NCBI GenBank assembly: GCA_025361425.1 | Contig: JANYAH010000085.1 | Coordinates: 1-50,011, forward strand | DNA length: 50,011 nucleotides | From: Candidatus Solibacter sp. | Lineage (GTDB): Bacteria > Acidobacteriota > Terriglobia > Bryobacterales > Bryobacteraceae | Reading direction: 5' to 3' | Part shown: one piece after another, positions 15,001 to 49,809 of the stretch | Numbering within the stretch: position 1 is the stretch's first letter | Layout of the letters: the number at the start of each line of letters is the position of its first letter | Position numbers and translations under genes: made by a program | The notes under the pieces: generated by a model | What the model was told of the DNA's origin: nothing | Databases searched by the model: none | Seen by the model: only the letters and a program-made list of their open reading frames with translations

Positions 15001-15732
15001 CATCTGAATGGTGCCGCCGGCCTGGCGTCCAATGGAAGAATCGTATGCGTTCATCACCACGCGGAACTCCTGAATGGCGTCGGGCGCCGGCATGAAGCCC
15101 GCCTGTCCGCCAGTCTTCAGGTTCGGCATGCCGTTGAGCTCGAAATTGTTGGAGCGCGTGTTGTTGCGCCCGCCATCCACGGTGATCTGCGAGGCCGCAT
15201 CGTGCGACCACAGGTGCGCGGTGTTGTTGTTCTGATCCTGTTGAATCACGCCCGGAGACAGCGTCGCTAACAAAGTGAGCACGCGCGACTGCGACGGCAT
15301 CTCCAGAATCTGCTCCTGCGAGATGACGGTGCCGGATGTAGCTGCCGTGGTATCGATCAGCGGCACTTCCGCCGTCACCGTGAGTTCGGTGGTGGTGGAC
15401 CCGACTTCGAGTTGCGAATCGATCTGCTTGCTGTCCGAAGTCTGCAGCACGATGCCCTTGCGTTCCACGGATTTGAAGCCGGCAGCGGAAACCGTGAAGT
15501 TGTAGCGTGCGGGAATCAGGAACTGCACCACCCAATTGCCCTGGTCATTGGTTTTGGTGGTCTGCCTCACGGCTGTGTCTTCGGAAATCACCGCGACTTC
15601 GGCATTCGGCACCGCCGAACCTTGTGCGTCCGTCACGCGGCCGCCCAACGAAGCCCGGCTGGATTGTGCCCACAAAGAACTCGTGGCGGCCATCAACATC
15701 GCCAACACGAGAATGAGAGTTGATTTTTTCAT
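12073..15732 (-). CDS. TonB-dependent receptor-like outer membrane protein (Oar/carboxypeptidase-regulatory type)
   Basis: The protein has 1219 residues, typical of the large Oar-like receptors of Acidobacteriota. Domains in order: Sec signal peptide (MKKSTLILVLAMLMAATSSLWAQ); a carboxypeptidase-regulatory domain at about 27-110 (LGGRVTDAQGSAVPNAEVAV); a plug-like region from about 120 to 240 (with ITVDGGRNNTRSNNFELNGM); then a long beta-barrel rich in aromatic and Asn/Gly residues, ending in MALKISF with a terminal Phe as in outer-membrane barrels. It probably binds and imports oligosaccharides using TonB energy. AAGGAG lies upstream of the ATG. A promoter with two ACCGGT operators lies ahead. 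The GH127 gene follows, so arabinose-containing glycans are the best guess for the ligand. Confidence 0.92.
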   Translation of the reverse strand: MKKSTLILVLAMLMAATSSLWAQSSRASLGGRVTDAQGSAVPNAEVAVISEDTAVRQTTKTNDQGNWVVQFLIPARYNFTVSAAGFKSVERKGIVLQTSDSKQIDSQLEVGSTTTELTVTAEVPLIDTTAATSGTVISQEQILEMPSQSRVLTLLATLSPGVIQQDQNNNTAHLWSHDAASQITVDGGRNNTRSNNFELNGMPNLKTGGQAGFMPAPDAIQEFRVVMNAYDSSIGRQAGGTIQMVTKSGTAKLHGSLYEFNQNNVFNANTFQSNVAGSAKAPIHYNEYGGTVGGPVWLPKVYNGKQKTFFFFAYDGTRNQDPRFGTRSVLNADERMGDFSQSYTSTVTGGVRTRVPLQIYDPYTVDSKGARTPYPGMKIPANQLSKVGRNILTYVPLPNTPSDGTSTDANNFVPSSSRQNKMADISGRGDQSWNNNHKSMVSVGWYHEDELAGDDFHNPSTGSYQHRIARTLQFNHVWTVGPTTILDLRANLSRYEEPNNDKGAGFDAASLGFPASFTSQMALPSFPQIIGQFGNIGTGQAGNVVNTSYYTYAGTLTKVKGNMTWKVGAEHWVLQQANKGIGNQGVYTFDNSNWTRQNALTSGGIGVGTSGAAFLLGLPNAGNFPRNADAFWNQHFEAFYVQNDWRVTPRLTINMGLRYDWETPVTERFNRMTTNFDSTVINPMSDAAQAAYTNILNSSANASNVGIQILQQYLPASSFKLMGAQLFSGVNGQSRGVYKTDWTQIQPRLGFAYKLGPNTVIRAGGGRFSQASFDTGGQNGFSRTTTFNVTSDNYFTPSDTMDNPFRTGILNPTGATLGALTNLGQGVTWNYQDQRRIYSWEYSAHLQHQIKGWLLELGYTHNKTYNITQALNQNLPPYDLWQKYLGVQSVFDGAGRPLDTLLWNTLVPNPFQGLANVTGSPSTNTTTTVHQLLNNVKILDGMTMNLTPWGSNQYDAMLAKVEHRFSKGFAVINSFTWSKLFEDTSWTGPEIAGRHVEHKLGGEDRPFHLSIAPIWQIPIGRKQALGHAMPKALDFVVGGWQISGQFNIQSGIPVVFNSTGSDNSWFSGQNFALPKGQQSLNRWFDTAQFQRFPDKGADITTYPAWTGVMSLPGAAYKPAVGDATKNGVYQDFAANIRSYPTRWGSVRASRTNNLDMGIYKNFAIRERLKAQFRFESYNTFNHPRFAAPNSDPTSSSFGVVAASQQNAPRTVQMALKISF

Positions 15733-15807
15733 CGCTACTTTTCTCCTTGGAAGTCACTTGTCGCAGGAAGGCCGGTCGCAGACTGGTCAAACTCCGACGC
15801 TCGTGAC

Positions 15808-15865
15808 TTACCGGTAAACATGACCCTATTACGCGGATAGTAGCACCGGTACGGCGTCGAATCAA
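15808..15865 (-). promoter_or_regulatory. Candidate promoter and repeated ACCGGT operator for the TonB-receptor gene
   Basis: On the minus strand, -35 TTGATT (15860-15865) and -10 TACTAT (15837-15842) are spaced 17 bases apart. A perfect ten-base palindrome TTACCGGTAA lies at 15808-15817, downstream of the -10. A second ACCGGT lies at 15845-15850, inside the spacer. Two similar operators overlapping a promoter fit a repressor that senses sugar, but no regulator gene is adjacent. The start codon is at 15732 after a leader of roughly 100 bases. Confidence 0.5.
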
Positions 15866-16078
15866 TAGAGTTTCAGACTACAAAACCTGGAAGAGCGGAA
15901 GCGCACGGATTCCAAAAACCGGGTTGCCCGTTTTGCGCGCGCCAGTCTGATTCGCGCCGTGACCGACCCGCCCCAGCAACAGGTGTCCGCTGGCTCAGCG
16001 GCGGATCCGGCATACGGAATCGCTGTGAAGGGAAGCGGCGATATTGCATCTGCAATGCCCGTGCTACGATGTGCTGTT

Positions 16079-20646: not shown

Positions 20647-20945
20647 TAAATGGGCCTTCGGCCCGCGAAATCCCACGAATAACCGGCGAGCCCCGGGCGG
20701 ATTGTCCGATGCGCGATGTAGTGTTTCGTCCCTGTCAGGCTTCGACAGACGACATAAACCGATCATCTGTCCCACCTCCCCCTCTTCCGCATGACCAGCG
20801 ACTCCACCACGCGCGATGCGGCGTCTGGTCGCAGGATTCGCGCGCACCGCAATGCCTACCCTTCTGGCAAGACGAGGTAAGGAGCAATGGCGATGATCAA
20901 GCGCGGGCTGGGTGACAAACGACAAATGGCGATCGTCTGCCCCAC
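20615..20945. other. Intergenic region holding three repeat copies, no gene seen
   Basis: About 330 bases lie between two converging genes. Three copies of the dispersed hairpin repeat take up about a third of it. Between them (about 20790-20910) short frames exist on both strands but are Arg-rich and lack ribosome binding sites. A 20-codon frame after AAGGAG at about 20878 runs into the third repeat and is not convincing. The region may hold decayed coding sequence. Confidence 0.5.
20744..20777 (-). repeat. Dispersed 3'-end hairpin repeat, copy 4
   Basis: On the minus strand it reads AGGTGGGACAGATGATCGGT and then TTATGTCGTCTGTC. The ends GACAGA and TCTGTC form a perfect six-base stem (20744-20749 with 20766-20771). 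It lies free in the intergenic region rather than against a stop codon. Confidence 0.65.
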
Positions 20946-31354: not shown

Positions 31355-31388
31355 GGCACACAAAGACAAGCCAGGAGGCCTGTCCTAC
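31355..31388 (-). repeat. Dispersed 3'-end hairpin repeat, copy 6
   Basis: On the minus strand it reads GTAGGACAGGCCTCCTGGCT and then TGTCTTTGTGTGCC, starting within the LysR stop codon. GACAAGCC (31365-31372) and GGCCTGTC (31377-31384) form an eight-base stem with one G-U pair and a four-base loop. Confidence 0.65.
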
Positions 31389-38731: not shown

Positions 38732-38742
38732 GGCCGAGACGC

Positions 38743-38776
38743 GGCAGACCATGCAAGGCGATGGTCTGCCCCACCT
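38743..38776 (-). repeat. Dispersed 3'-end hairpin repeat, copy 7 (perfect hairpin)
   Basis: GGCAGACCAT (38743-38752) and ATGGTCTGCC (38761-38770) form a perfect ten-base stem with an eight-base loop. On the minus strand the element reads AGGTGGGGCAGACCATCGCC, as in copy 1. It lies where the YoeB-like toxin should end and just before the HlyD stop codon, so it could also end transcripts from both sides. Confidence 0.75.
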
Positions 38777-39880
38777 CTACTTCCCAGGCAACGCTGCTCC
38801 GTCGCGGATTTCGTCGGTGGCGCGGCGGACCACCATGTCACCGGGTTGCAGGTTGCCCATCACCTCGATGGAATCTCCATCGGCCGCGCCCTTTTTCACA
38901 TCCACCCACTCGGCCTTGCCGTTGCGGCCGCGAACCACGAACGTTCGCTCGGCGGTGGTGACCACGCTGGTCTTCGGGACAAGAAGCGACGGGCGCGTCC
39001 GGCGCACGGGCCACTTCACGCTGGGGTACATGCCTGGCGAGAGCGAACCATCGCGATTCAGGACGTCCAACTCTACCGGCATGGTGCGGGTTTTCAGGTC
39101 GAGTGCGTGGGCCACACGCGCCACGGCGCCTGCGTAGGTCCGCTCCGGAAACGCGGGGATTTTGAACTCCACTTTGGCGCCCGCCACGATGCCGCCGATG
39201 TCTTGCTCCGGCACCGCGACGATCAGCCGCAAGCGCGAGACCTGTTGGATCACCAGAAGCACGGGGTCGGCGCCGGGGCCCACCAGCGCGCCGGGATGAA
39301 TCAGGCGGTCGGTAACCACTCCGTCGAAAGGCGCGGTGATTTCGAGGTAGGTCTGCATCACCGTCTGCGCGCGCAGAGCGGCTTCGGCGGCACTGACCGC
39401 CTGCCGTCTGGAACTGACGAGGGCGCGCGCGGCGTCCACCTGCTTCTCCGCCTGCGTGAGTTCGTTGCCGGCGATGACTCCGGGGGTTTCCGCCGCCTTT
39501 TTGAGGTGTTCCGAGGTGCTCTGCGCCGCCGCCAGTTGGGCTTCGGCCTGTAGCCGGTCAGATTCGGCGGCGTGCACGCGGGATTCGGCTTCGGCGACGC
39601 GGGCAGCCATCTCCGGCGCGCTCAACTCGGCGAGGAGTTGTCCCTGTTTGACGACGCTTCCCCGGTCCACCAGGACCTTCTCGACATAACCCGCCACGCG
39701 GGCGTGGAGCGAAACCATGAGGAACGGCTGGAACTCGCCAGGCAGGTCCGCTGTGCGCGAAAGAGATTTGGAGACCACGGGCGCGAGGTCGGCAGTTTGG
39801 GACCAGGCCGCACCAGCCAAGATCGTGAGGATGAGTATGACAGGCCTCCTGGCCTGTCTCTTGTCAAGCACGTTCGCCAT
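38777..39880 (-). CDS. RND efflux periplasmic adaptor (HlyD/MFP family)
   Basis: The protein has 367 residues from ATG 39878-39880 (MANVLDKRQARRPVILILTI); a longer frame from 39928 overlaps the RND gene by 14 bases and adds 16 residues. After the signal peptide comes a barrel-sandwich (VSLHARVAGYVEKVLVDRGS, ITAPFDGVVTDRLIHPGALV) flanking a coiled-coil hairpin (about residues 95-170), then a beta-barrel (LRLIVAVPEQDIGGIVAGAK) and a membrane-proximal domain. It links the inner-membrane pump to the outer-membrane channel. The signal-peptide codons are partly made of a dispersed-repeat hairpin. It is the last gene of the PadR-TolC-RND-HlyD unit. Confidence 0.92.
   Translation of the reverse strand: MANVLDKRQARRPVILILTILAGAAWSQTADLAPVVSKSLSRTADLPGEFQPFLMVSLHARVAGYVEKVLVDRGSVVKQGQLLAELSAPEMAARVAEAESRVHAAESDRLQAEAQLAAAQSTSEHLKKAAETPGVIAGNELTQAEKQVDAARALVSSRRQAVSAAEAALRAQTVMQTYLEITAPFDGVVTDRLIHPGALVGPGADPVLLVIQQVSRLRLIVAVPEQDIGGIVAGAKVEFKIPAFPERTYAGAVARVAHALDLKTRTMPVELDVLNRDGSLSPGMYPSVKWPVRRTRPSLLVPKTSVVTTAERTFVVRGRNGKAEWVDVKKGAADGDSIEVMGNLQPGDMVVRRATDEIRDGAALPGK
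39839..39858. repeat. Dispersed repeat hairpin inside the HlyD signal-peptide codons
   Basis: GACAGGCC (39839-39846) and GGCCTGTC (39851-39858) form a perfect eight-base stem with a TCCT loop. On the coding strand it encodes RQARRPV, the basic n-region of the HlyD signal peptide. It matches the core of the dispersed 3'-end repeat family. Confidence 0.65.
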
Positions 39881-39887
39881 ATCGAAA

Positions 39888-39916
39888 CGACAGGCCAGAG
39901 GGCCTATCCCACTTTT
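39888..39916 (-). repeat. Dispersed 3'-end hairpin repeat, copy 8
   Basis: On the minus strand it reads AAGTGGGATAGGCCCTCTGG and then CCTGTCGTTTC, starting at the TAA stop of the RND gene. GATAGGCC and GGCCTGTC pair with one G-U. It lies between the RND stop and the HlyD ATG at 39880, only a few dozen bases from the second hairpin. Confidence 0.65.
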
Positions 39917-43183: not shown

Positions 43184-44584
43184 TCATCGGCCAGCCTCGG
43201 CGGCGAAGGGCTGGATATCGCCGGCGGCCGCGGCCACGCCGAGCAAGCCGCGCCAGACGGCGAGCCGGGCTAACGCGTCGTCGATCTCGGCCTGCGTGAG
43301 CAAGCGCTGCGCCTCGGCGACTTCCGTGATGGTTCCAAGACCCGCTTCATAGCGCGCCGTCGCCTGCTGTGTGGCGCTCCGCGCCGCCGAAACCTGGGTG
43401 GGGGTGTTGGCCGCGATACGCCGTGCGCCGTGCAACATCGCCACCGCGCGGTTCCATTGGGCGCGCAGGTCGGTCGCGATCTGCGCGCTCCTGGCCTGCT
43501 GCGCGCGCATGGTTGCGGTTTGCGCCGCCTGGCGCGCACGAATTGCCGGCAGGTCGGATACCGGGAAGGTCACGCTGAACCCGAGAGCGTAGTTCTGCGT
43601 GCTGGGAGCCAGACCATTGAGGCCGCCGAGTATTTTTCCGTTGGTCTCGGCGCCAGAGCCGCGCGCGTACGCCGAACCCTGCAAATAGAAGCGTGGAAAG
43701 TAGGAGCGTTCCAAGGCTCGGAGCCTGGCCAGAGTCTCCTCGACCGCGGCGTTCTGCTCTAGCACGATCGGGTTCTTCGTTGGATTCACGGCGGGGACGT
43801 CCTGTTCCGGCGGCAGTTGGAGCAAGGCTGAAATATCCAGGGCGATCTGGCCGGGCTCCACACCGACAAATTGGGAGAGCGTGGCGCGCGCCACATCGGC
43901 GGCCTGCTGCGCCTGGATCCATTGGGTACGCGCCGCGGCCAGTTCGGCATCGGCCCGCGAAGCGTCGGCCCCGGGCCGCAACTGCGCGTTGACCAGCGCG
44001 GTAATCGTCCGCAAGAGGACGCCGGCCCGGTCCACGCCGGCCTGCGCTGCGCGAATGGTCTCTTGCGCAGCGGCCAGCGTCAGACACGCATCGGCGGTGG
44101 CGACCGCGATTTCGTACTGCGTGCGTTTCAAGGCGGCCTCGGATTCAGCTTGCAGCGCACTCGCGACGGCCAGATTGGCGCGGCGAAGTCCAAAGTCGAA
44201 GGGCTCCCAGGTGACCAAAACTCCGAGCGCGGTGCCCCACGTGGTGCCCAGATTGTTGGTGCCGAGCACCGGCCCCGAGATCGACGGGATCGCGCTCTGC
44301 GGCAGGAGAAGTCCGAACACGTTGTTCCTGGTGGCGCGATTGACTTGCGCGAGCGCGTCCGCGTGGGGCAGATAGGCGGTCCGCGCCAGGCGAATGCCCG
44401 CCGCCGCGGCATTGATCTGCTCCTGGGAAACTCGCACGGAAGGGTAGTTTTTGAGGGCGCGCTGAATCGCCTGGTCCACAGTCATCAGTCCCGGAGCGAC
44501 GGCTGGCTGGCCCATGGCTAGCCCGGCAGCAGCCAACGCCAGCAGGAAAATCCGGGGACAGACGGAACGTTTTCCAGTTTTCAT
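43184..44584 (-). CDS. TolC-like outer membrane efflux protein
   Basis: The protein has 466 residues. It has a signal peptide (MKTGKRSVCPRIFLLALAAA, cleavage near MGQ), then two outer-membrane-efflux repeats with long helices (SVRVSQEQINAAAAGIRLAR; AARTQWIQAQQAADVARATL; ATARYEAGLGTITEVAEAQR). It would form the trimeric channel of the RND pump. It starts four bases after the PadR stop, so the two are one transcript. The first 33 bases are nearly the same as those of the metalloprotease gene at 49258, an unusual shared 5' end. Confidence 0.93.
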   Translation of the reverse strand: MKTGKRSVCPRIFLLALAAAGLAMGQPAVAPGLMTVDQAIQRALKNYPSVRVSQEQINAAAAGIRLARTAYLPHADALAQVNRATRNNVFGLLLPQSAIPSISGPVLGTNNLGTTWGTALGVLVTWEPFDFGLRRANLAVASALQAESEAALKRTQYEIAVATADACLTLAAAQETIRAAQAGVDRAGVLLRTITALVNAQLRPGADASRADAELAAARTQWIQAQQAADVARATLSQFVGVEPGQIALDISALLQLPPEQDVPAVNPTKNPIVLEQNAAVEETLARLRALERSYFPRFYLQGSAYARGSGAETNGKILGGLNGLAPSTQNYALGFSVTFPVSDLPAIRARQAAQTATMRAQQARSAQIATDLRAQWNRAVAMLHGARRIAANTPTQVSAARSATQQATARYEAGLGTITEVAEAQRLLTQAEIDDALARLAVWRGLLGVAAAAGDIQPFAAEAGR

Positions 44585-44588
44585 TCCG

Positions 44589-44927
44589 CTACTCGCCTTC
44601 CATGAGTTCTCGAAACAACTCGCGCACCTTGATCTTGGATGCCTCTAACGCCTTCCGTCCCAAAGCAGTCGCGCGGTAGACCTTGCGCAGCGACCTGCCG
44701 TTCCGCTGGTGCGTGGAACGGAGATAGCCTTTCTTCTCCAACCCATGGAGCAGCGGATACAGACTGCCGGGGCTGATCCGGTAGCCGTGGCGCCCCAATT
44801 CTTCGATCATGCCGAGCCCGAAAATGGGCTCCGCGGTGGCGTGATGCAAGACGTGCAACCGAATCAGCCCGGAGTACAGATCGCGGTCGGCCGGCAAGCT
44901 TTGATGATCGGGTTTCGTTTTCGACAT
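44589..44927 (-). CDS. PadR family transcriptional regulator
   Basis: The protein has about 112 residues from ATG 44925-44927 (MSKTKPDHQSL); an upstream in-frame start at 44975 would lie in the promoter. The winged helix reads HATAEPIFGLGMIEELGRHG, then ISPGSLYPLLHGLEKKGYLR and RKVYRATALGRKALEASKIK. PadR proteins repress efflux or detoxification genes until a ligand binds. As the first gene of the efflux unit, it probably represses its own promoter and therefore the pump. Confidence 0.92.
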   Translation of the reverse strand: MSKTKPDHQSLPADRDLYSGLIRLHVLHHATAEPIFGLGMIEELGRHGYRISPGSLYPLLHGLEKKGYLRSTHQRNGRSLRKVYRATALGRKALEASKIKVRELFRELMEGE

Positions 44928-44945
44928 ACGACTATGCGAGATTCG

Positions 44946-44975
44946 AGTATAAAGACGGAAAGCGACGGATGTCAA
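44946..44975 (-). promoter_or_regulatory. Strong sigma-70-like promoter of the padR-efflux unit
   Basis: On the minus strand, consensus TTGACA (44970-44975) and TATACT (44946-44951) are spaced 18 bases apart. The expected start of transcription is near 44939, only about 12 bases before the padR ATG, and no ribosome binding site is visible, so padR may be read from a very short leader. PadR binding here would silence the whole efflux operon. Confidence 0.65.
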
Positions 44976-45014
44976 GGGCGCGAATGGCCCGCGCCGTGAT
45001 AGCCTTTAAGGCGC

Positions 45015-46058
45015 ATGACCTCGCCTGAAGTGGTCCTACACATCCTGCGGCCCCGCTGTTATCCAATCCGGCTTTCGCTGGTGGTCCCGATGTACAACGA
45101 GGAAGCGGCCATCCCTATTCTTCGCGCGGCGATCACCAGTTTCATGCGCGAGTTTCCCGCCGAGCCGGAAGTCATTCTGGTGAATGACGGTAGTGCGGAC
45201 GCCACCCTGGTGAAGGTCGCCGAATGGGCCGCCGATGACCCCAGGGTCAAGGTGATCCACCTTTCCCGCAACTTCGGACACCAAATTGCCGCGACCGCCG
45301 GTCTCGATTATGCCACCGGCGACGCCATCGTGCTGATTGACGCCGATCTTCAGGACCCTTTGTGCGTGATTCACGAAATGGTGGAGCGTTACCGCCAAGG
45401 CTACGACGTGGTCTACGGACAGCGCGATGCCCGCGAAGGTGAACTCGCGTTCAAGCGAATTAGCGCCTGGGCCTTCTACAGACTCATGCGGACGATAGTA
45501 GACAGGCGGCTTCCAGTGGACACCGGAGATTTTCGCCTGATCTCCCGGGAGTGTCTGGACGGCCTTCAGCAAATGCGGGAGCAGCACCGGTTTTTGCGCG
45601 GCATGGTGACTTGGGTTGGTTACCCTCAGTGCGCGGTGAAATACCGGCGCAACGCTCGCGTTACCGGAAGCACCAAGTACCCCGTGCGCAAAATGCTAAG
45701 CTTCGCCTGGACAGCAGCCACTTCGTTTTCCACCCTGCCGCTGCAATTCAGCATAGTTCTGGGCATGATCGCGGGACTCTGCGGAATTGAGGAAGCCATT
45801 CGCGCGGTTGCGGCTTCGTTGGCGGGCCGCACGGTTCCCGGTTGGACTTCGTTAATGGTCGTAACCAGCATCCTCAGCAGCGCAGTGTTGATCAGCATCG
45901 GGATCGTGGGGCAGTATGTCGGAAAGATCTATGAAGAGTCCAAGGGCCGTCCGCTCTATCTGGTTGCCCGGACATTCAATATCGCATGTCCGGCAGAGCG
46001 GAACGTGCCCGGCAAGGCCGCGCGGGCGGCGGGTGAAACTCGCGAGTCTCAAGGGTGA
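45015..46058 (+). CDS. GT2 family glycosyltransferase (polyprenyl-phosphate sugar transferase type)
   Basis: The protein has 347 residues. The GT-A domain (about 18-235) holds SLVVPMYNEEAAIPILRAAI, VILVNDGSADATL, IHLSRNFGHQIAATAGLDYA and the metal-binding IVLIDADLQDPL. Two transmembrane helices follow (about 235-260 and 280-305), with the typical LISIGIVGQYVGKIYEESKG near the end. This is the layout of DPM1/ArnC/GtrB-like enzymes, which load a sugar onto undecaprenyl or dolichyl phosphate at the inner membrane. The product could feed the GT-C enzyme seen elsewhere in the window, but that is speculation. It converges with the next gene; the last ten bases overlap. Confidence 0.92.
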   Translation: MTSPEVVLHILRPRCYPIRLSLVVPMYNEEAAIPILRAAITSFMREFPAEPEVILVNDGSADATLVKVAEWAADDPRVKVIHLSRNFGHQIAATAGLDYATGDAIVLIDADLQDPLCVIHEMVERYRQGYDVVYGQRDAREGELAFKRISAWAFYRLMRTIVDRRLPVDTGDFRLISRECLDGLQQMREQHRFLRGMVTWVGYPQCAVKYRRNARVTGSTKYPVRKMLSFAWTAATSFSTLPLQFSIVLGMIAGLCGIEEAIRAVAASLAGRTVPGWTSLMVVTSILSSAVLISIGIVGQYVGKIYEESKGRPLYLVARTFNIACPAERNVPGKAARAAGETRESQG

Positions 46059-47644
46059 CGGGAATAGATTCTGAGCGACCCGCCAGGCCGCGTGAGAGGG
46101 CTCCAACCCAGACCGTTTATGACCGCGTCGGTCACGGCACCAGACGCTCCTTCCCGCACGACAAAACTTAGTTCTGGAACTGCTCCTCCCCCGCTCAATG
46201 CGCCTAACAGCAACTGGCCCGCCGGGTACGGCTGCAACTCACTCCAGCGGTCCGGATGCGCCGGCCGGATCATGATGATCGGCAGATCCATCCACGGCGC
46301 GTTGGCCAGAATCGCCTTGGACCTCCGGAAATAATGGGCTCCGCCCCAGAGGAACGGATCGAACGCCAAACCTTCCGGAGGGGCTGTCTCTTCGCCAATG
46401 ATGAGGCCCACCGATCCAGCCTTCGCCGGGGGGGCATCCAGCACCGGCCTCATCGCTGTAGCGATCCTTGAAACGTTTGCCCACTGCAGCACCAGTACCG
46501 TGCCGGTGGCGCACAAGGCGATCACGCCGGCCGCGAGCGTACACAGGCGCGGGGGACGTAACGCGGCAGCGGCAGCGATCGAAAACACGATCCAGAAAAT
46601 TAGAAAACGGTGCGGAAAAAACCAACTGCCATTGATGGATCCCGGCCCGATGCAAAACAGCAAGAAACAAATCGCGCTGGTTGCCATCATCGCGATCGCG
46701 GCGGAGCTTGCGCGGCCTCCGTGCTTCCAAACGCCCACCAGCAGGGCAAGGCCCGTCATAGCGAGCAGGAACATGAGGCCCGCGCGGTAGGCCAGCGAGG
46801 TGAACGGCACTACGTGCCCGAGTCCCAGCGCGGCGGTTACGGCGTGGATCCAACCAAGGTCTGCGACGAAACTTGGCGCGGAAGGGGCGTGCTGCGAGTG
46901 CGTCACGAACCCGCCGAGCCAAACCGCCGCGGTTCCGCCCATGAGAGCAATCATCGCCAGCGGCCCCCGCCGCGCGCGCAGGGATGACGCCCAAAGCTGG
47001 GACCCGGCCGCGGTTGCGCGCGCAAGATCCGCCACTAAGTGCACTCCGGCAAACAGCAGGAAAACAGCCACCGGCACTGGGTGGGTCAGCAGCATCAAAA
47101 TGAAGCAGGCCAGCAGCGCCGCAACGCGACCTGGGTGCAGCCGCTCCCAGTAGCGGATCCAGAAACCGGACAGAAAGAGCGCTAGCGCCACGCCGATGCA
47201 GTAATTGAGGAACCCCATATACACAAGCTGGCTCATGCAGAAGGGTATTCCGGCGAGCGTCCAGGGGCTGCTCCGTTCCACCACAGACTCCACCAGATAC
47301 TTGAAGCCGTGGCCGAACGCAAAAATATAGCAGCAGACCAGCAGTTTCTCACTTACCGCCGGGGAGAACACCATTTCAAACACCAGAAGCCAGTAATACT
47401 CAAGCGCGTAAGGCGTCAGGAGTGCCTTGATTTCAAAGTGTTGCGCGTATGGCCCTGAGTGCGTTAGTAAGTTCCGGAGGATGTCCACGTAGTAGAGATG
47501 GACAGGCCCATCCTGACTCGGGAACACCGGGGCGGCAAGCACCACCACGGCTGTGCAGACAAGCAGGGCGTTGGCGGCCACGTCCCACAAGATGCCTTGG
47601 CGCGCGCTCAATCGCGCCAGACTACCCGGTCGTCCGCTCACCAT
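46049..47644 (-). CDS. Polytopic membrane protein of unknown function
   Basis: The protein has 531 residues with about ten to eleven transmembrane helices (for example NALLVCTAVVVLAAPVF, VAALLACFILMLLTHPV, FLIFWIVFSIAAAAALR), then a soluble C-terminus of about 130 residues. The first outer loop has FPSQDGPVHLYYVDILRNLL, an acidic loop after helix 1 like that of GT-C glycosyltransferases, so a GT-C-type role is possible. No family is recognised with confidence. The neighbouring GT2 gene on the other strand supports a link to lipid-linked sugars. The frame to ATG 47644 is the natural start. Confidence 0.78.
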   Translation of the reverse strand: MVSGRPGSLARLSARQGILWDVAANALLVCTAVVVLAAPVFPSQDGPVHLYYVDILRNLLTHSGPYAQHFEIKALLTPYALEYYWLLVFEMVFSPAVSEKLLVCCYIFAFGHGFKYLVESVVERSSPWTLAGIPFCMSQLVYMGFLNYCIGVALALFLSGFWIRYWERLHPGRVAALLACFILMLLTHPVPVAVFLLFAGVHLVADLARATAAGSQLWASSLRARRGPLAMIALMGGTAAVWLGGFVTHSQHAPSAPSFVADLGWIHAVTAALGLGHVVPFTSLAYRAGLMFLLAMTGLALLVGVWKHGGRASSAAIAMMATSAICFLLFCIGPGSINGSWFFPHRFLIFWIVFSIAAAAALRPPRLCTLAAGVIALCATGTVLVLQWANVSRIATAMRPVLDAPPAKAGSVGLIIGEETAPPEGLAFDPFLWGGAHYFRRSKAILANAPWMDLPIIMIRPAHPDRWSELQPYPAGQLLLGALSGGGAVPELSFVVREGASGAVTDAVINGLGWSPLTRPGGSLRIYSRHP

Positions 47645-47807
47645 TCGGTGTCCACCGCCGGGATTTCCACTTGCCTACAAGACTGCATTTGGTTCTGGCC
47701 GAAAGATGCCGTTCAGTCGTCGAACAGAATAGCAGGCTGTGAACCGGGATGTCACCGGGCCGGGCGGTTGGGTTGGCCCGCGCCCGGATGAGAGACAATA
47801 ATCGTTC

Positions 47808-49250
47808 GTGTCCGCAACTCTTCAACCCGTCATCGAACGGCGCAGCAGACCGCCCGGATTGTGGTGGCGCTGGGCCGCGGTGCTCATACCCGGCGTCCTG
47901 CTCTACTTTTTCACCCTGCCCGGGATGAACACCGCGCAGGAGCGTTTGGTCGCGATTTTCGCCGCCACCATCATCGCGCTGGTGGCGCAGCCCGTCCGCA
48001 TGGGGGTGAGCGTCCTGCTCGCCATGACGCTGCTGGCGTTGACAGGCACACTCACGCCGGCCAGGGTGCTCTCGGGGTTCGGCAACGTCACCGTGTGGTT
48101 GATCTTCACCGCGTTTCTGTTTTCGCGCGCGGTGACGCAGACCGGGTTCGGCATGCGCGTGGGCTATCTTTTCATCGCACGCTTCGGCCGGACACCTTTG
48201 CGTCTGGGGTATTCCTTGGCCGCGGCGGACCTGGTGCTGGCGCCATTCATCCCGTCGGATACGGCGCGCGGGGGCGGCGTGATCTTCCCGATCACGCGCT
48301 CTGTGGCCAGCGCCTTCGGGTCGGAGCCGGGGCCGACGGCGAGGAAGATCGGGGCGTTTCTGGTGCTGGTATCGTTCCACACGACATATGCGGCCTCGGC
48401 GATGTTCCTCACCGGCATGGCGGCGAATCCGTTGATCGCGGAGTTCGCCCTCAAAATCGGCCACGTGGAACTGACGTGGGGGCGGTGGCTGTTGGGATCG
48501 ATCGTACCGGGGTTGCTAACGCTAGCGATTGTGCCTTGGCTGCTGTTCCGGTTGGTTCGGCCGGAGATTCAGCACACGGAAGCGGCGCGCAGTATGGCGC
48601 GGGAAGAGCTGGCGCGGCGTGGTCCCATGGAGCGGCGGGAGCAGTGGCTGGTGGCCATCATGCTAGGCGTGATGACGGGCTGGGTGACCTCACCGTGGCA
48701 CGGCGTGCCGAATACCTTTGTGGCGCTGACCGGCTTGTGCGCGCTGCTGCTGGCGCGGGTGATCGCGTGGGAAGATCTCTTAGCCGAGCACAGGGCATGG
48801 GATGCGCTGATCTGGTTCGCTCCCCTAATCATGATGTCGGACGCGTTGAATGAGAACGGCGCCATCAAAGTATTGAGCGGCAGCCTGTTTGCGGGGGTCC
48901 AGGGCTGGGCGTGGCCGTTGGCGCTAGCGGCCCTGGTGACGGCCTACTGCTACGTGCACTACGGATTCGCCAGCATGACGGGCCACGTCACGGCGCTCTA
49001 TCCGGCGTTCCTGGCCGCGACCCTGGCCGCCGGCGCGCCGCCGATGATGGCGGCGCTGGCGCTGGCCTACTTTTCCAACTTGAACGCGGCCATGACCCAC
49101 TACGGTACCGGGTCGGCGCCGGTCTTCTTCGGAGCAGGCTACGTACGGCAGGGGGAGTGGTGGCGGTTGGGGTTCGTGATTTCGCTGGTCAATCTGGTGA
49201 TCTGGCTGGGGATTGGGCCGGTGTGGTGGAAAGTGGTGGGGATTTGGTGA
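47808..49250 (+). CDS. DASS/SLC13-type anion transporter
   Basis: The protein has 480 residues from a GTG at 47808. About twelve hydrophobic segments are visible. Conserved parts include NVTVWLIFTAFLFSRAVTQT, PSDTARGGGVIFPITRSVAS, VLVSFHTTYAASAMFLTGMA and, late, AALALAYFSNLNAAMTHYGT. This matches the CitT/SodiT group of divalent-anion symporters or exchangers in the inner membrane, which transport dicarboxylates, citrate or tartrate. The exact substrate is unknown. The metalloprotease gene starts eight bases after its stop, so they are likely co-transcribed. Confidence 0.92.
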   Translation: MSATLQPVIERRSRPPGLWWRWAAVLIPGVLLYFFTLPGMNTAQERLVAIFAATIIALVAQPVRMGVSVLLAMTLLALTGTLTPARVLSGFGNVTVWLIFTAFLFSRAVTQTGFGMRVGYLFIARFGRTPLRLGYSLAAADLVLAPFIPSDTARGGGVIFPITRSVASAFGSEPGPTARKIGAFLVLVSFHTTYAASAMFLTGMAANPLIAEFALKIGHVELTWGRWLLGSIVPGLLTLAIVPWLLFRLVRPEIQHTEAARSMAREELARRGPMERREQWLVAIMLGVMTGWVTSPWHGVPNTFVALTGLCALLLARVIAWEDLLAEHRAWDALIWFAPLIMMSDALNENGAIKVLSGSLFAGVQGWAWPLALAALVTAYCYVHYGFASMTGHVTALYPAFLAATLAAGAPPMMAALALAYFSNLNAAMTHYGTGSAPVFFGAGYVRQGEWWRLGFVISLVNLVIWLGIGPVWWKVVGIW

Positions 49251-49257
49251 GAATCGA

Positions 49258-49809
49258 ATGAAAACCGGAAAACGTTCCGTCTGTCCGCGGTTTCTGTTGC
49301 TGGCGGTGGCGGGGGTTTGCGCAGGGCATGCGGCCGGATTGACGTATTGGGTGGAGCCTTGCACACGTCCGGCGGAGATGGCGTGCAAGAACGGGGATCC
49401 GGACCTGGCACAGTGGGCCATGGAGGCGTGGCAGGCGGCATCGGGTGGCAAACTCCAGGTGGAGCGGACCGCGGAAAAGAATCAGGCGACCGTCAAGATT
49501 TATTGGGCATCGGGCCGCGCCGGATTGTATGGGGAAACTCGCGGCGGGGATGTCTTTGTAAGTCCCGCCGCCGGCGAGGGAATCTTGCGTGAGGCCACGG
49601 TGTACCTGACGTGTCTGCACGAAACTGGCCACGCCTTGGGCTTGAGGCACACGGCGAACTTCGAAGACATCATGTACAACTTTCAATACGGCGGGGATAT
49701 CATTAAATATTCTGCCTGTTATGCACGGAAGTTACAGCGGCGGGAGGACATCCGAAAGCACCCAGGCATGTCCCGTAACGATCAAAAACGTTTAGCTGCC
49801 GGACTGTAA
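49258..49809 (+). CDS. Exported matrixin-like zinc metalloprotease
   Basis: The protein has 183 residues from ATG 49258 (MKTGKRSVCPRFLLLAVAGV, signal peptide to about HAAG). The zinc-binding motif HExxHxxGxxH appears as HETGHALGLRH at about residues 122-132, followed by a Met-turn-like DIMYNFQYGG, as in matrixins. It is small but holds a complete catalytic core. An earlier in-frame ATG at 49213 would lie inside the transporter gene. The stop region overlaps the 3' end of rnpB on the other strand. Its first 33 bases resemble those of the TolC-like gene. Confidence 0.85.
   Translation: MKTGKRSVCPRFLLLAVAGVCAGHAAGLTYWVEPCTRPAEMACKNGDPDLAQWAMEAWQAASGGKLQVERTAEKNQATVKIYWASGRAGLYGETRGGDVFVSPAAGEGILREATVYLTCLHETGHALGLRHTANFEDIMYNFQYGGDIIKYSACYARKLQRREDIRKHPGMSRNDQKRLAAGL

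Follow-up and report, generated by a model that had tools for sequence, protein, structure and literature searches.

A REP-like repeat as the probable signal-peptide front of two unrelated predicted exported proteins in 'Candidatus Solibacter'

Introduction

Why should two genes for unrelated exported proteins begin with almost the same 33 bases? The question is raised by a contig of 'Candidatus Solibacter' sp., in which a TolC-like gene and a metalloprotease gene share such a start within the 50,011-nt stretch of DNA analysed here (hereafter, the window). A preliminary description read the shared segment either as a captured repeat that forms the start and the basic n-region of signal peptides, or as a conserved translation-start cassette. 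Atypical REP-like repeats that carry a CnGA foot in place of GTAG were described in 2018 beside HUH proteins in Acidobacteria, with about 600 in Solibacter usitatus (PMC6006769). Intragenic REPs were listed in 2013, when they proved commoner at the NH2 terminus than at the C-terminus of proteins; the authors cautioned that in many N-terminal cases translation may begin past the REP and leave it untranslated (PMC3733652). From the window and its relatives, we conclude that an old REP insertion (or an insertion followed by copying), kept as a signal-peptide n-region, very probably explains the shared start.

Results

By direct reading, the TolC-like gene opens with ATGAAAACTGGAAAACGTTCCGTCTGTCCCCGG (minus strand, 44584-44552) and the metalloprotease gene with ATGAAAACCGGAAAACGTTCCGTCTGTCCGCGG (plus strand, 49258-49290). 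The two starts are alike at 31 of 33 bases, both mismatches are synonymous third positions (ACT/ACC and CCC/CCG) and each start translates as MKTGKRSVCPR, which bears out the near-identity first described. The rest of the proteins is unrelated, again as proposed: one ORF encodes a 466-aa TolC-like outer membrane efflux protein (43184..44584, minus strand; PF02321, E 2.1e-38; N-terminus MKTGKRSVCPRIFLLALAAAGLAMG), whereas the other encodes a 183-aa matrixin-like metalloprotease with a HETGHALGLRH motif (49258..49809, plus strand; PF00413, E 1.5e-7; N-terminus MKTGKRSVCPRFLLLAVAGVCAGHA). With a repeat finder, the likeness of the two starts extends to inverted arms of 55 nt that are 87% alike (44532..44586 on the minus strand and 49256..49310 on the plus strand). 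Within these arms a sequence model of the repeat (R1) and direct reading both place a REP-like unit over codons 2-12 of each gene, at 44549..44581 (minus strand, E 2.1e-10) and 49261..49293 (plus strand, E 2.9e-9); the portion of the arms beyond the unit is a look-alike, Leu/Ala-rich h-region, and its likeness may be convergent. A 20-mer core searched with up to 3 mismatches had no site in the window besides the two gene starts, and none of 100 dinucleotide shuffles of the window held two core matches. The core was likewise found nowhere besides these two starts in the 5.3-Mb genome to which the window belongs (377 contigs).

The repeat units thus sit directly behind the start codon, where they are read (M)KTGKRSVCPR. 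Both genes follow another gene closely: the stop of a PadR-like regulator (ORF 44589..44975, minus strand; PF03551) lies 4 nt ahead of the TolC ATG, and the stop of a Na/sulfate-symporter-family transporter (ORF 47808..49250, plus strand; PF00939) lies 7 nt ahead of the metalloprotease ATG. The TolC ATG at 44584 is the first ATG, GTG or TTG past the preceding in-frame stop, and a search for in-frame ATG, GTG or TTG codons upstream of it found none. The next downstream start codons lie within or past the hydrophobic stretch, so skipping the REP would remove the basic n-region. By eye, KTGKRSVCPR is followed by IFLLALAAAGLA in one protein and FLLLAVAGVCAG in the other, as a putative basic n-region and hydrophobic stretch. 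From these sequences we infer that KTGKRSVCPR forms the basic signal-peptide n-region of both predicted exported proteins, and that both are translated from the assigned starts and exported.

The unit belongs to a family that is seen in related genomes. Across 61 related genomes, a 29-mer of the repeat was counted 26 times in 'Candidatus Solibacter' sp. Chersky.3_40 (G008), twice in Chersky.14_27 (G003), both of the same genus, and twice in the window's own genome (G000). With one mismatch, the 17-mer core GTTCCGTCTGTCCCCGG gave 51 sites in G008, 9 in G003, 12 in G006, where the copies carry TCACCGG, and 66 in G025, a genome of another genus. From 50 sites in G008, with 43 distinct unit sequences among them, we derived the consensus AAAACYGGAAAACGTTCCGTCTGTCCCCGG(G)TTT. 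The edges of the element are sharp in this genome, conservation being mostly 0.7-1.0 within -12 to +20 and at background beyond. Among the G008 loci examined, nearly all copies lie between genes, as predicted around them with a simple hexamer coding score, in both orientations and often as inverted pairs. The one inverted pair that we folded as a single strand folds strongly (z -9.2); in a single unit the AAAACCGG and CCGGTTTT ends pair and the fold is weak (z -1.2 to -1.4). The GTAG/GTGG tetranucleotide at the hairpin foot is absent from the consensus, and CAGA stands near the foot position on the reverse strand, ahead of GGAACGTTTTCC. The REP has no stop codon in any of its six frames; the frame in use codes for KTGKRSVCPR(V/I/F), which contains four basic residues and no acidic one. 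The two window copies are single units, not pairs; judged by its sequence, the unit at each start is one copy of this REP-like element. In G025, many of the 66 core copies are tight inverted pairs (for example at loci L118 and L105), and the sole Y1_Tnp match found there (contig C37) is not beside any listed core copy.

In three of these genomes, the repeat flanks a transposase gene. Y1_Tnp genes (PF01797, above the cut-off) lie between inverted repeat copies on G008:C35, G003:C890 and G006:C173; on G008:C35 the gene spans 15654-15977, between copies at 15548(-) and 16341(+). All three sequences show the HUH (HVH) and Tyr (RYAERNP/RYTELNP) motifs on inspection, and identity to the G008 RAYT is 71% for the G006 protein and 57% for the G003 protein. 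All three score 54-67 bits with the NCBIfam RAYT model NF047646, under its cut-off of 80. The window's genome has two Y1_Tnp matches and holds no close relative of the G008 RAYT, the best match to it being 34% over 81 aa. Altogether, a repeat that is dispersed, mainly intergenic and RAYT-linked in sister genomes supports the first reading of the preliminary description, in which a captured repeat provides the basic n-region of signal peptides.

The same evidence bears on two explanations that need no captured repeat. Gene conversion or duplication of a 5' end between neighbouring genes, with no mobile element involved, would fit the inverted arrangement of the two genes, which lie 4.7 kb from each other here and about 2 kb in G008 and G005, as well as the reach of the likeness into the h-region. 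However, the unit is dispersed at dozens of intergenic sites and flanks RAYT genes in the sister genomes, and the close likeness drops where the REP consensus ends. The dispersed copies refute neighbour copying as the full explanation, which we hold to be very unlikely; copying of the REP from one start to the other is possible as a sub-step. The unit might instead be a conserved cassette for translation start or regulation, such as an mRNA leader or a protein-binding site, that is coding by chance, as the second reading of the preliminary description had it. It is true that both units lie exactly at exported-protein gene starts and are identical in three species. Yet nearly all G008 copies are intergenic, in both orientations and in inverted pairs, and when about 85,000 genomes were scanned for other start-anchored captures, only these two genes carried the unit at their start, the scan returning besides them two intergenic chance matches. 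This second reading is not supported, given the placement of the G008 copies, and we regard a cassette as highly improbable. Both chance matches were rejected: translation of the one in G027 would end after 26 codons, and the other, in Terriglobia SRVP_16, falls past the end of an aldehyde-dehydrogenase-like ORF.

We then compared the two gene starts across sister species. G003 and G008 carry both gene-start copies at positions equivalent to those in the window's genome. The TolC start reads MKTGKRSVCPR in G000, (V)ITGKRSVCPR in G008 and (V)RSGKRSVCPR in G003, and a 24-nt core of the TolC unit and a 20-nt core of the protease unit are identical across the three genomes. Such conservation is too weak as stand-alone proof of selection, since six invariant runs elsewhere in TolC are longer than the identical core. 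The TolC starts of G010, G028, G004, G057 and G006 match the REP at 7-13 of 36 positions, a likeness that is not significant, and the existence of orthologs without REP likeness means that the unit is not native to the TolC family. The G002 start is borderline (19/36), without a clear REP, and that of G005 is partly alike (27/36); these two are either eroded or pre-insertion states.

Several TolC orthologs start at, or overlapping, the PadR end. Because the orthologs that lack the REP start at the same spot, behind or overlapping the end of the upstream gene, the start codon itself is probably native, with the REP supplying codons 2 to about 12. The proposal that the captured unit is the start itself therefore holds for these codons and probably does not hold for the start codon. 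In trees of OMF+RND proteins and of rpoB, internal branches are very short and supports among close species are 34-79; with a tree this near to star-like, neither data set fixes the date of the capture.

The TolC-PadR and transporter-protease pairs have a back-to-back arrangement in G008 and G005, and likewise in G002 as far as the contig reaches. The constancy of this arrangement bears on a third alternative, in which the inverted arms would act as a recombination switch, inverting the 4.7-kb segment and so exchanging what lies upstream of each gene. The 55-nt arms do bracket the segment from PadR to the transporter, exactly at the two starts, but the order and orientation TolC-PadR-transporter-protease are the same in G000, G008 and G005, and in G002 for the part present. 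Given this constant gene order in the relatives, we reject an invertible segment between the arms and consider a switch extremely improbable. Between PadR and the transporter, the window carries a glycosyltransferase and a membrane protein (45015-47644), whereas in G008, G005 and G002 PadR directly adjoins the transporter; the two genes were either inserted in the window's lineage or lost from the other genomes.

The protease start has changed further in two relatives. In G008 (L119, 280-951), the old ATG frame is broken by an additional REP, inverted and upstream, together with a partial tandem copy, and an in-frame upstream GTG, located in the loop between the REP pair, keeps the frame open. 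Translated from this GTG, the REP would be read in another frame, giving the protease a new N-terminus. In G005 (L120, 7380-7568), about the first 121 protease residues are deleted and the protease end lies directly behind the transporter stop.

Finally, we asked how far the family is present in the window's own genome. A sequence model of the repeat recovered the two gene-start copies and two 16-nt tails only (E about 0.06 for the tails). This genome also holds another REP family, GACAGGCCTCCTGGCCTGTC, of which 59 copies were counted with up to 2 mismatches allowed; three of them are seen in the window as GACAGGCCTCCTGGCYTGTC (31365-31384, minus; 39839-39858, plus; 39889-39908, minus), one preceded by GTAG. 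Since 59 copies of this other REP were assembled, an assembly gap is an unlikely cause of the missing full copies, and their absence looks real. The expectation that the unit would occur between genes as well as at gene starts thus fails in the window's genome, where it occupies two starts only, and holds in the sister genomes; confinement to these two starts is a property of the window's genome alone, and the family becomes visible only in relatives. The window also contains a 42-nt direct repeat in three copies (1332-1373, 20736-20777 and 38735-38776), which end in CTGTCCCACCT or CTGCCCCACCT and are 64-83% alike to the first.

Discussion

The preferred reading, capture of a REP as the front of a signal peptide, can be set out as a sequence of events. 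An ancestor would have gained a REP just behind the start codon in each of two secreted-protein genes, through two insertions or through one insertion and then copying to the other gene. A basic, stop-free frame would suit the n-region of a Sec signal peptide, so that the insertion could be tolerated or even useful. The window's lineage would later have lost the transposase and the other copies, or would never have had many, and the coding copies would have stayed. Retention without the family fits a history in which non-coding copies were lost and coding ones kept; expansion of the family in G008 only is a possible alternative history. A broader idea, that the REP family repeatedly seeds or repairs signal-peptide n-regions, its basic stop-free reading being a ready-made front and its coding copies outliving the family, is speculative and in our view unlikely.

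The element resembles REP/REPIN sequences and their RAYT (TnpA-REP) transposases (PMC3116915, PMC3733652, PMC6006769) in its units of 20-40 nt, mostly intergenic, in the inverted copies on either side of a Y1/HUH transposase gene and, as in REPINs, in the G008 inverted pairs that fold as long hairpins. It differs from them in lacking a GTAG/GTGG foot, in the weak fold of the single unit and in a RAYT that scores under the NCBIfam cut-off. The CAGA before GGAACGTTTTCC fits the CnGA-foot class (PMC6006769) as a lead only, and the Tyr motif here is YAERNP, not the Y----Q of that class.

As in the intragenic REPs catalogued earlier (PMC3733652), the REP here is read in frame as protein. The present case differs in that initiation downstream of the REP would cost the proteins their predicted signal-peptide n-region, that TolC lacks any upstream start, and that two unrelated predicted exported proteins share the unit across three species. 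Rickettsia palindromic elements offer another parallel, as small palindromic repeats in frame within unrelated genes, and their N-terminal cases are said to be expressed (cited in PMC3733652); they belong to another lineage, have another sequence and, in the account cited there, are not described as signal-peptide n-regions. Our literature search, of incomplete coverage, found no relevant report of REPs as signal peptides. N-terminal REPs being already known, what is new here is a REP as the putative shared n-region of two unrelated exported proteins, kept in three species and retained in the window's genome without its family.

A selfish repeat would here have turned into protein sequence, as the front of a predicted export signal on an outer membrane channel and a secreted protease. 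The locus offers a clean test case for the doubt over translation of N-terminal REPs, because a start downstream of the repeat could not keep a normal signal peptide. More generally, proteins that share no ancestry can in this way come to have identical N-termini.

The repeat also occurs within a coding sequence elsewhere: in G008 (L079, 501-2054), an in-frame array of the repeat contributes about 50 residues to a predicted membrane protein.
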